From Achromobacter insuavis (GTDB lineage: Bacteria > Pseudomonadota > Gammaproteobacteria > Burkholderiales > Burkholderiaceae_B): a DNA stretch of 64,000 nucleotides. Under the pieces are notes generated by a model. It did not search any database. It was given only the letters and a program-made list of their open reading frames with translations, and was not told the DNA's origin. Shown here one piece after another: positions 23,202 to 26,542 of this stretch (its first letter is position 1; the number at the start of each line of letters is the position of its first letter). Location: positions 1 through 64,000 of the forward strand of contig NZ_CADIJR010000020.1 of NCBI RefSeq assembly GCF_902859645.1, written 5' to 3'. The translations under genes were made by a program, and so were the position numbers.

Positions 23202-23212
<11 letters not shown>
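22205..23212 (+). CDS. ABC importer ATPase (DppD type)
   Basis: 335-aa nucleotide-binding subunit. Walker [12 protein letters not shown], signature [16 protein letters not shown], Walker [13 protein letters not shown] and the C-terminal oligopeptide-transporter extension with a Cys-containing [12 protein letters not shown] motif. That extension is usual in the DppD/OppD group, where it can bind a 4Fe-4S cluster. Start ATG at 22205 sits in the stop of the preceding amidohydrolase. Confidence 0.94.
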
Positions 23213-24185
<973 letters not shown>

Positions 24186-24224
24186 TTGATTTCCTGGTGG
24201 GGGTTGGATGCGGGGGCGGGCTTT

Positions 24225-24400
24225 GTAGGTCGCCCCTCGGTCGGGCGGACCCGATGGCGGGCGCCCACGATTGCGGTCCGGAGCGTTCGCTCCGGACTGC
24301 CCCTTCCTCATCCTCGTTGCCGCCTTTCGGCGGCTGCCTTCGGATTCCGTCGGGCGCATCGAGGTTGCCCGCCATCGGGTCCGCCCGACCGAGGGGCTAC
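24225..24400 (+). repeat. Long palindromic repeat, type A, copy 1
   Basis: A perfect 30-bp inverted repeat (24233-24262 with 24367-24396), bounded by GTAG and CTAC, encloses about 104 bp. Inside lie a small perfect hairpin (TCCGGAGCG/CGCTCCGGA), then CTCATCCTCGTTG, a further small hairpin (GCCGCC/GGCGGC) and TTCGGATTCCGTCGGGCGCA. The inside is closely shared with copy 2 at 25065-25239, but the 30-bp arms are unrelated. It starts 39 bp after the stop of the last gene of the plus-strand operon. Confidence 0.85.
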
Positions 24401-24468
24401 GTGCGTGTTGGCTCGTTGCGCTGCTAGAGCTGTGTGCAGGGCATGAAACCTGCAGGGCTGCCCATCGC

Positions 24469-24484
24469 GGCCGCGCGGGCGGCC
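24469..24484 (-). repeat. 16-bp hairpin core, type C, copy 1 (reverse orientation)
   Basis: GGCCGCGCGGGCGGCC, the reverse complement of the core in copies 2-4. It is flanked by GCCCA and TGGGC arms that pair with each other. It lies 69 bp past the end of the type-A element, and the flanks retain traces of the copy-4 flanks (TGCNGGGC...GCCC before and GCGTCTG after, read in this sense). Confidence 0.7.
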
Positions 24485-24583
24485 ACGCTGGGCGTCTGTG
24501 CATTTGAAAGTGTGGCGGGTGCGCTGCGCGCGGGTGACGAGTGGCTTTCTGGTGGTTCCGCACGTCAGGGGGGAGGGGCGGTG

Positions 24584-24638
24584 GTGGTCGGCGCGATGTG
24601 TGCCGTGTTGCGCGTGGCGAGCTTCGCGCGCCGACCAC
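24584..24638. repeat. Inverted repeat GTGGTCGGCGCG / CGCGCCGACCAC
   Basis: A perfect 12-bp dyad with a 31-bp spacer (24584-24595 and 24627-24638), in the middle of the gene-free region. It is not obviously a copy of the other two repeat types. It could be a decayed element or an independent hairpin. Confidence 0.6.
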
Positions 24639-24731
24639 AAACAGTCTTGGTGCCAACGATCTCTCAATAGCACTCGATTTCGCCGCCGCCACACGCGATA
24701 GCGTCATCACCAACCGCAAGATCCCGCGTAA

Positions 24732-24766
24732 GCCTCAAAAGGCCGCCCGCGCGGCCGCTTTGAGGC
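24732..24766 (+). repeat. Type C hairpin, copy 2
   Basis: The core GGCCGCCCGCGCGGCC (24741-24756) is itself a stem GGCCGC/GCGGCC with loop CCGC. It is extended by 8-bp arms GCCTCAAA (24732-24739) and TTTGAGGC (24759-24766). Upstream flank AGCGTCATC...CGCAAGATCCCGCGTAAG and downstream flank GGGCCCCGC are shared with copy 4. Confidence 0.8.
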
Positions 24767-24830
24767 GGGCCCCGCCCCACCATTCATCGCAAGCGCGCAG
24801 CGGCATCCTCAATCGCAAGACGCTACGGAT

Positions 24831-24865
24831 GCCCTCCGATGGCCGCCCGCGCGGCCGAGGAGGGC
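24831..24865 (+). repeat. Type C hairpin, copy 3
   Basis: The same 16-bp core (24841-24856), here with 7-bp arms GCCCTCC (24831-24837) and GGAGGGC (24859-24865). The arms differ entirely from copy 2 yet still pair. A partial CGCAAGA flank lies upstream. Its core starts exactly 100 bp after that of copy 2. Confidence 0.8.
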
Positions 24866-24969
24866 GACCAACGCAAGATCTTCCACCCCCAAAACCAAGC
24901 CGCATAAAAACATCAGCACCCCCACCCACACGCGAGAGCGTCATTCCTCAGACGCAAGACCCCGCGTAA

Positions 24970-25004
24970 GCCCCAAAAGGCCGCCCGCGCGGCCGGCCTG
25001 GGGC
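24970..25004 (+). repeat. Type C hairpin, copy 4
   Basis: The same core (24979-24994) with arms GCCCCA (24970-24975) and TGGGGC (24999-25004), and the long shared flanks AGCGTCATTC...CGCAAGACCCCGCGTAAG upstream and GGGCCCCGC downstream. It lies about 70 bp from the type-A copy 2 element, the same distance that separates type-A copy 1 from type-C copy 1. Confidence 0.8.
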
Positions 25005-25064
25005 GGGCCCCGCAAATCTCTCTCCCCACACCTCGATGTAGCTGCGCTCCATACCTCGAAGCCG

Positions 25065-25239
25065 GTAGCCTGTTGCGGCGGGGTGGGCCGGGTGGGGCGC
25101 CGTCGATGCGCCCGACGGAATCCGAAGGCAGTCGCCGCAGGGGACAACGAGGATGAGGATGGGGCAGTCCGGAGCGAACGCTCCGGACCGCAATCGTTGG
25201 CGCCCCACCCGGCCCACCCCGCCGCAACAGGCGGCCTAC
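25065..25239 (-). repeat. Long palindromic repeat, type A, copy 2 (reverse orientation)
   Basis: A perfect 33-bp inverted repeat (25069-25101 with 25199-25231) bounded by GTAG and CTAC. The interior (25102-25198), read on the minus strand, matches copy 1 closely: ACGATTGCGGTCCGGAGCG, then CTCATCCTCGTTG, then TTCGGATTCCGTCGGGCGCA. The 33-bp arms have no resemblance to the arms of copy 1. Read in this direction, it begins 25 bp after the stop of the TRAP operon's last gene. Confidence 0.85.
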
Positions 25240-25264
25240 GAAGCCACCACCGCAATCAAAAAAA

Positions 25265-26542
25265 CTACTTCGAATAAACCAAATCCCGTAGTCCCAACGA
25301 CAACCCCGGCCAATAGGTAATCACCATCAGGCAAACAATCACCACCCCCACAAACGGAATCAACGGCTTGATCAACCTCTCCAACGGCAGCTTCGCCACC
25401 GCGCAGGCCGCGAACAGATTCACCCCGAACGGCGGCGTGATCATGCCCAGGGCCAGGTTGACCACCATGATGATGCCGAAGTGCACCGGGTCCACCCCGA
25501 ACTTCAGCGCCACCGGCAGCAGCAGCGGGGCCAGCACCACGATCGAGGCCGAGGTCTCGATGAACATGCCGATCACGAACAGCGCCAGGTTCACGCCCAT
25601 CAGGAACGAGAACTGGGTGTCGAACAGCTGCGCCAGCCACACGCCCAGCGCATCGGGGATGCCGGCGCGGTTCAGCAGGAAGCTGAAGACGCCGGCGTTG
25701 GCGATCACGAACATGATCACGGCCGTCGACACCACCGACTTGTGCAGCGTGTCCGACAGTTGCTTGAAGCTCAGGCGGCGGTAGACGAACTTGCCCACCA
25801 CCACCGCGTACATCACCGCCACCACCGAGGCCTCGGTCGGGGTGAAGACGCCGCCGTAGATGCCGCCCAGGATGATCACCGGCATCATCAGCGCCAGCCA
25901 GGCGCGCTTGAAGGCCGGCCACAGCGGCAGGCGGCCTTCGCCGTCGCGTTTGCCCAGGTTGTTGCGCTTGGCGTAGAACCAGACGTAGAACATCAGCGCC
26001 ACGCCGATCAGGATGCCGGGCATGACGCCGGCGATGAATAGCTCGCCGGTGGAGGTGTCTGTGGACACCGCGAACAGGATCATCGGGATCGACGGCGGGA
26101 TGATCACGCCCAGCTCGGCCGCGCTGGCCTGCAATGACGCGGCGAAGGGCGCGGGATAGCCGTGGCGGATCATGGCCGGGATCAGGATGGCGCCCACCGC
26201 GAAGGTGGTGGCGACGCTGGAGCCGGCGACCGCGGCGAAGATCATGCAGGTCAGCACGCAGGTGCAGGCCAGGCCGCCCTGGATGCCGCCGACCACGCTC
26301 TTGGCGAACTCCACCATGCGTTCGGAGATGCCGCCGGCTTCCATCAGGTTGCCGGCCAGGATGAAGAACGGAATGGCGACCAGCGGGTACTTGTCCAGCG
26401 CGGCGAACAACTGCTGGGCCACCACCAGCCAGGGCAGGTTGGCGGCGCCGACCCCCGCCAGGCTGGCCAGCCCGATCGACACGGCGACCGGCACGGACAG
26501 CCCGAAGAAAATCAGCATCGAGACAATCATTAATTGGGACAT
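25265..26542 (-). CDS. dctM: TRAP transporter large permease, DctM type
   Basis: 425-aa inner-membrane protein with about 12-13 hydrophobic helices. It resembles DctM/SiaM throughout (PLVAIPFFILAGNLMEAGGI, IIPPSIPMILFAVSTDTS, ALGMITPPFGVNLFAAC). It provides the sodium-coupled translocation step of a tripartite TRAP importer. It is last in the dctP-dctQ-dctM order on the minus strand, 34 bp after dctQ. Its 3' end faces the repeat-rich region. Confidence 0.95.
   Translation of the reverse strand: MSQLMIVSMLIFFGLSVPVAVSIGLASLAGVGAANLPWLVVAQQLFAALDKYPLVAIPFFILAGNLMEAGGISERMVEFAKSVVGGIQGGLACTCVLTCMIFAAVAGSSVATTFAVGAILIPAMIRHGYPAPFAASLQASAAELGVIIPPSIPMILFAVSTDTSTGELFIAGVMPGILIGVALMFYVWFYAKRNNLGKRDGEGRLPLWPAFKRAWLALMMPVIILGGIYGGVFTPTEASVVAVMYAVVVGKFVYRRLSFKQLSDTLHKSVVSTAVIMFVIANAGVFSFLLNRAGIPDALGVWLAQLFDTQFSFLMGVNLALFVIGMFIETSASIVVLAPLLLPVALKFGVDPVHFGIIMVVNLALGMITPPFGVNLFAACAVAKLPLERLIKPLIPFVGVVIVCLMVITYWPGLSLGLRDLVYSK

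Follow-up and report, generated by a model that had tools for sequence, protein, structure and literature searches.

A repeated two-domain structured unit at gene ends in Achromobacter, possibly a one-way barrier to antisense read-through

Two mirror-image copies of a large structured repeat occupy the gap 24186-25264 between a plus-strand ABC-transporter gene and a minus-strand TRAP DctM gene in the window, by which we mean the whole analysed stretch of 64,000 nucleotides of Achromobacter insuavis (contig NZ_CADIJR010000020.1, positions 1 to 64,000). The whole unit is ~350 nt long and has two domains, a long palindromic element, here called A, and a hairpin, here called C. Comparison of its copies leads us to propose, at a little under an even chance, that the unit is a directional 3'-end module, perhaps of the Rho type, which would halt read-through just before the opposing gene. 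The broader form of the proposal is somewhat more tentative: the copies may represent a family-wide class of large two-domain 3'-end RNA modules with a conserved recognition core and drifting arms, which would keep convergent genes free of antisense read-through by serving as one-way barriers.

Reading away from either stop codon, the order in each unit is element A (~175 nt), a spacer, and one or more C hairpins. Unit 1 follows the gene for an ABC transporter ATPase with an oligopeptide/dipeptide C-terminal region (23202-24185, plus strand). Its element A spans 24224-24407, probably on the minus strand, with arms 24229-24271 and 24358-24400 around the core; a C hairpin with variable arms of its own lies at 24460-24493 (minus strand), followed by a tail at 24494-24560 that is C-rich on the minus strand and whose end is not sharply defined. 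Unit 2 follows the TRAP transporter DctM subunit gene (25265-26530, minus strand; stop codon 25265-25267). Its element A spans 25064-25239, probably on the plus strand, with arms 25068-25107 and 25193-25232, and in both units the A element folds as a three-way junction. Unit 2 has three plus-strand C hairpins, near 24733, 24833 and 24971: one at the standard distance from A (24971-25006) and two extra ones (24733-24770 and 24833-24865). After the second of the extra hairpins comes GCAAGATCTTCC, and in another genus several copies have this motif, or one like it, behind their C hairpin. A third palindrome, read by eye at 24583-24638 and given no strand, sits between the two units at the middle of the pair; similar palindromes occur in the units of loci L031, L032 and L039.

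An earlier note, made from the letters of this DNA, had described mirror-image composite repeats behind the two operons, and these are real. One A element is an inverted copy of the other (24259-24325 is 94% complementary to 25139-25205, and 24323-24370 is 88% complementary to 25095-25142), a C hairpin comes after each A, and the linkers have some sequence in common. Each A also pairs with itself through its own long arms, 24229-24271 with 24358-24400 (91%) and 25068-25107 with 25193-25232 (95%). They start ~40 bp (unit 1) and ~28 bp (unit 2) from the flanking stop codons, counting the GTAGG foot. Both are far more stable than shuffled sequence, with z-scores of -12.7 and -12.0 and none of 200 shuffles as stable. 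The note had also made much of the sense orientation of both copies relative to the adjacent gene; any oriented element lying between convergent genes has this property automatically, so it is uninformative.

The copies at other loci define the anatomy of the unit. Element A consists of a conserved core of ~95 nt inside arms of ~30 bp, and the core folds into a three-way junction in which a closing stem meets a hairpin and a stem that contains internal loops. The arms vary by locus yet stay complementary; 189 distinct pairs of them fall into 21 loose clusters. Two subtypes can be told apart at the foot of A, read on the A-to-C strand: subtype 1 has GTAGG, and subtype 2 has GTTCTT..G instead. 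Among the 45 of 92 copies on which the distances rest, the A core lies 192-199 or 223-230 nt from the C hairpin, depending on subtype, and 210, 211 or 241 nt from it in copies with an insert in the core. A C-rich insert of ~14 nt occurs at one place in the core at L049, L127 and L144. At two sites (G002:C1:402200-402235 and G026:C1:6484634-6484669), the motif that starts the core is found on both strands, 20 bases apart, like a fully symmetric derivative. The arms of the C hairpin are variable too and less perfect, with a perfect 8-bp stem in 27 of 111; a pattern for the centre of C had 64 matches, against 15 for its reversed control. The same junction and loop motifs are kept in copies from three other genera. 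Of 18 other-genus loci examined at the C position, 13 have a hairpin with 11 or more perfect pairs; the stem there is interrupted, as judged by eye, in L362 and L363 and missing in L360, L367 and L384.

A genome search for the A core, as the earlier note had suggested, gave at least 40 matches in the source genome: of 79 candidates, 40 were scored and every one of these matched, both window elements among them, which is well above chance. The core is present in 36 of 37 genomes of the genus, counting the source genome. The one genus genome with no copy (G003), together with six species that have only 3-5 matches each, indicates that the module is dispensable. When named genomes were searched with a 15-base core pattern, the matches listed included 39 loci with the full core, all of them in Achromobacter. 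A covariance model of A (R1) hit 16 of 121 family genomes, spread over 9 of 43 genera with Achromobacter itself counted, several of these matches being single and weak. A second model (R2) picked out 3 of 250 genomes of the order, each a member of the same family. Both searches used strict filters, and one genome of another genus (G070) gave no match with R1 and 13 with R2; absence from other genomes of the family and order is therefore weak evidence. No Rfam family reached threshold at the eight loci searched, and window positions 23900-25500 gave only six matches, all far below threshold, to PhrS and to two families of microRNA precursors; the microRNA-precursor matches were rejected as reflecting long hairpins only. 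No repeat of this kind was found in the literature on Achromobacter, judged by titles and the beginnings of abstracts.

Most copies appear to be old residents of their sites. Of 41 copies of the source genome, 33 have an A-side flank at least 88% identical to the one beside some copy in G015, and 30 to one in G002; for 24 (G015) and 23 (G002), the flanks on both sides match a single copy, so the repeat family has mostly been inherited. Over 58 orthologous pairs, identity is 92-93% in the arms, 86% in the linker, 75-77% in the upstream spacer and tail, and 92% in the neighbouring gene. The core pattern lies within 260 nt of the gene end in 18 of 30 loci at the TRAP site, where a few others hold remnants without a core; at the site matching the ABC end, at least three species show nothing but a short gap. 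The remnants at L143, L146 and L165 have lost the core, in some cases together with one arm. At the TRAP site of five species (L128, L130, L134, L136 and L139), the arms are near-identical and the apex of the inner stem differs and looks like variants from elsewhere, a hint that copies have exchanged sequence.

The fold itself has been maintained through sequence change. When other genera were included, two-sided changes were found at 26 of 33 pairs and 98.2% of cells were paired, in an alignment fitted to the model, for which slid controls score far lower. Inside Achromobacter, two-sided changes occur at 13 of the 33 pairs. Isolated pairs across internal loops covary as well. The variable arms behave in the same way between orthologues, where 71 of 1025 pair positions had changed, 50 on both sides (48 of these complementary) against 21 on one side; this count rests on 41 of 63 orthologue pairs, 11 having been left out for gaps and 11 for low identity, and a copy of the source genome may count twice, once each against G015 and G002.

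A long stem that stays complementary and nevertheless diverges suggests that one particular strand is the one that folds, and the mismatches remaining in the arms indicate which. If the folding strand tolerates wobble pairs, G.T should outnumber A.C when mismatches are read on that strand. In the variable arms, G.T on the C-to-A strand outnumbers A.C by 63 to 12 (189 arm pairs, 21 clusters; nominal p 2e-9), each mismatch being counted once per arm cluster and position, and by 16 to 1 when each cluster is represented by a single arm pair. The other genera add 7 to 0 in the same direction (25 distinct arm pairs in 14 clusters, counted in a fixed register over 33 of 39 matches and four G070 loci). 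Two other ways of counting were discarded: a local-alignment count for the other genera (G.T 12, A.C 20) mixed in foot sequence, and a whole-arm count of G.U against A.C (151:117) came out near balance because it includes fixed mismatches at both arm ends, the bias being confined to the variable arm. The bias is not a general one, since in the linker and tail G>A (494/6027) is not commoner than C>T (251/2702). Mismatches in the C hairpin show no strand bias (22 to 17), and between close orthologues the one-sided changes divide equally between the strands (6 to 6). G.A mismatches in the arms favour the C-to-A strand as well. When all copies are aligned, deviations from the majority base in the linker and tail include far more G>T than C>A; with this excess present in the flanks, the G.A bias is not counted as support, and the odds for the strand rest on G.T against A.C and are unchanged with G.A set aside. 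From the arm sequences, then, it is well supported that A folds on the strand read from C to A, and a folded single strand of DNA is still compatible with the wobble bias because G.T is tolerated in DNA too.

The placement of the unit agrees with the earlier note in tying a repeated module to gene ends. Among 39 loci judged independent, 26 are convergent, 12 are tandem (9 read from C to A and 3 from A to C) and 1 is divergent. These loci come from 77 of 183 copies, kept if they were single, had both neighbouring genes scored above 30 and lay in a gap under 1000, and then clustered by the gene on the A side; genes were called from GC by codon position. The tandem count is small, and one of its three A-to-C loci is a mixed cluster of one tandem and one convergent copy. 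In a Pfam check of six tandem loci of the source genome, 9 of 10 neighbour proteins had a match, for both neighbours in three loci and for one neighbour in the other three. Where two units lie close together, A is outermost in 34 of 34 pairs from six Achromobacter genomes (22 in G002, G016, G026 and G031, 5 in the source genome and 7, found by eye, in G015) and in 5 of 5 pairs in G070. Left out of the 34 were two opposite-strand sites 20 nt apart and the same-strand neighbour at L037, a truncated copy at a contig end.

Base composition is directional as well. Over the 260 nt upstream of A on the C-to-A strand, copies of the source genome average 42% C and 24% G, and all 39 have more C than G, the kind of stretch found in Rho-dependent terminators; C exceeds G in 34 of 46 other 3' flanks and in 3 of 12 other convergent flanks, the latter being few and not independent. 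A T-tract is not generally present after either A or C. The earlier note had read the unit from A to C, a direction that is probably wrong, as the arm wobbles, the excess of C over G and the tandem loci (9:3) all favour C to A.

We propose that each copy of this structured repeat works as a 3'-end module on transcripts that run into it at the C end and out of it at the A end. A polymerase that runs beyond a stop codon would transcribe a C-rich, G-poor stretch containing the C hairpin and then element A. Rho would be loaded on the C-rich stretch, with A as the stable 3' boundary of the RNA. Read-through would then end a few tens of bases before it turned antisense to the facing gene or, at other loci, upstream of the next operon. 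At paired loci such as the one in the window, each gene would own one barrier at its end.

The main rival is a REP/BIME-like miniature mobile element, whose hairpins would serve mobilisation as a folded single strand of DNA, for which convergent sites would simply be the least harmful, and which would have no role in host termination. We consider this less likely than our proposal, and it accounts for a good deal: the high copy number, the two subtypes, the folding bias towards one strand, and the pairs with A outermost, which resemble inverted REP dimers. One genome of another genus (G165) has several copies with the same arm, suggesting recent spread or exchange, and published REPs are described as likewise gathering near 3' ends, with convergent or tandem genes on either side (PMC3733652). 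Against it, a match to the Y1 transposase is absent from the source genome, G002 and G015 and present in only 7 of 25 genus genomes searched, and plasmid and phage records gave no match to the core at E 1e-5. The A-side flanks of most source-genome copies are common to other species, and between orthologues the arms keep an identity of 0.92-0.93, well above the 0.75-0.77 of the upstream spacer and tail. For the source genome, the suggestion of the earlier note that a mobile element targets 3' ends thus finds no backing as a recent process, given the flanks held in common with G015 (33/41) and G002 (30/41) and the missing Y1 transposase.

It is improbable that the unit works at the level of DNA, as a cruciform or single-stranded hairpin that serves the chromosome in replication, in recombination or as a site bound by protein. 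The palindromes are very stable, and copies avoid the terminus: the origin-proximal half of the chromosome holds 84 of 99 loci in four complete genomes with dnaA located (G002, G026, G031 and G016), loci that are not independent between species. A symmetric cruciform, however, would give no strand bias, and transcription fits better with the C-rich composition and with divergent gene pairs being nearly free of copies (1 of 39). Less probable still is that the repeat is just a conventional intrinsic terminator, working in both directions and present in many copies. The location between convergent genes would suit one, and a minority of C hairpins elsewhere have T-runs, some with A-runs before and T-runs after the stem (L034 and L054, for example), but the gap in the window holds one terminator-like match against 0.9 expected, and such a terminator leaves the conserved three-way junction and its strand bias unexplained. 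A neutral origin, in which template switching or hairpin gene conversion keeps the palindromes complementary and structure is not under selection, would accord with arms that differ freely between loci, with the excess of two-sided over one-sided changes and with the even strand distribution of recent one-sided changes, but it is hardly credible, as it predicts equal numbers of G.T and A.C remnants where 63 and 12 were counted, and covariation extends to isolated pairs across internal loops.

If the reading as a directional 3'-end module is true, many gene ends in the family use one reusable directional insulator that is absent from Rfam. Drifting arms that remain complementary would also allow the folding strand of a palindromic repeat to be read from sequence alone, through the balance of G.T and A.C mismatches, a test applicable to REPs and other palindromes. 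With dozens of natural copies per genome, the way in which convergent genes avoid antisense transcription could be tested by one RNA-seq experiment.

Among known systems, Rho-dependent terminators with stable 3'-end hairpins have a C-rich, G-poor stretch before the hairpin and no T-tract, and in these respects they are putatively like the present unit. The unit differs from them in being a repeated family with a conserved fold, which to our knowledge such terminators usually are not.

The closest known kind is the REP/BIME-like repeats, GTAG- and CGTC-tagged palindromes of which published REPs measure 20-40 bp (PMC3733652, PMC2817692). Going by those descriptions, both are intergenic palindromic repeats in tens of copies, situated near 3' ends and between convergent genes and often forming inverted dimers. 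At the foot, where a GTAG or CGTC tag would be looked for, A has GTAGG in subtype 1 on the A-to-C reading and GTTCTT..G in subtype 2. The Achromobacter repeat differs in its ~350-nt unit of two domains, in its A element of ~175 nt, which has a three-way junction and long arms specific to each copy, and in that no match to a RAYT (Y1_Tnp) gene was found in the source genome. BRE, a betaproteobacterial repeat of ~90 bp, is described as mostly intergenic, arranged in tandem arrays, present in several betaproteobacterial families, found in Bordetella and relatives and common in the Comamonadaceae, with transcripts detected at one copy (PMC3110155). On that description it is set apart from the present repeat, in which close neighbours are inverted and the matches found under strict filters all lie in one family. 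Achromobacter belongs to the Alcaligenaceae. Bordetella, placed in that family as well (PMC3110155), also carries Bor-1 and Bor-2, intergenic structured stem-loop repeats, of which the Bor-2 model measures 167 bp and has 17 sequences in B. bronchiseptica (PMC2267715). Like the present repeat, they are intergenic and structured, and on a comparison of published descriptions, lengths and counts only, Bor-2 may be a counterpart of the Achromobacter repeat.
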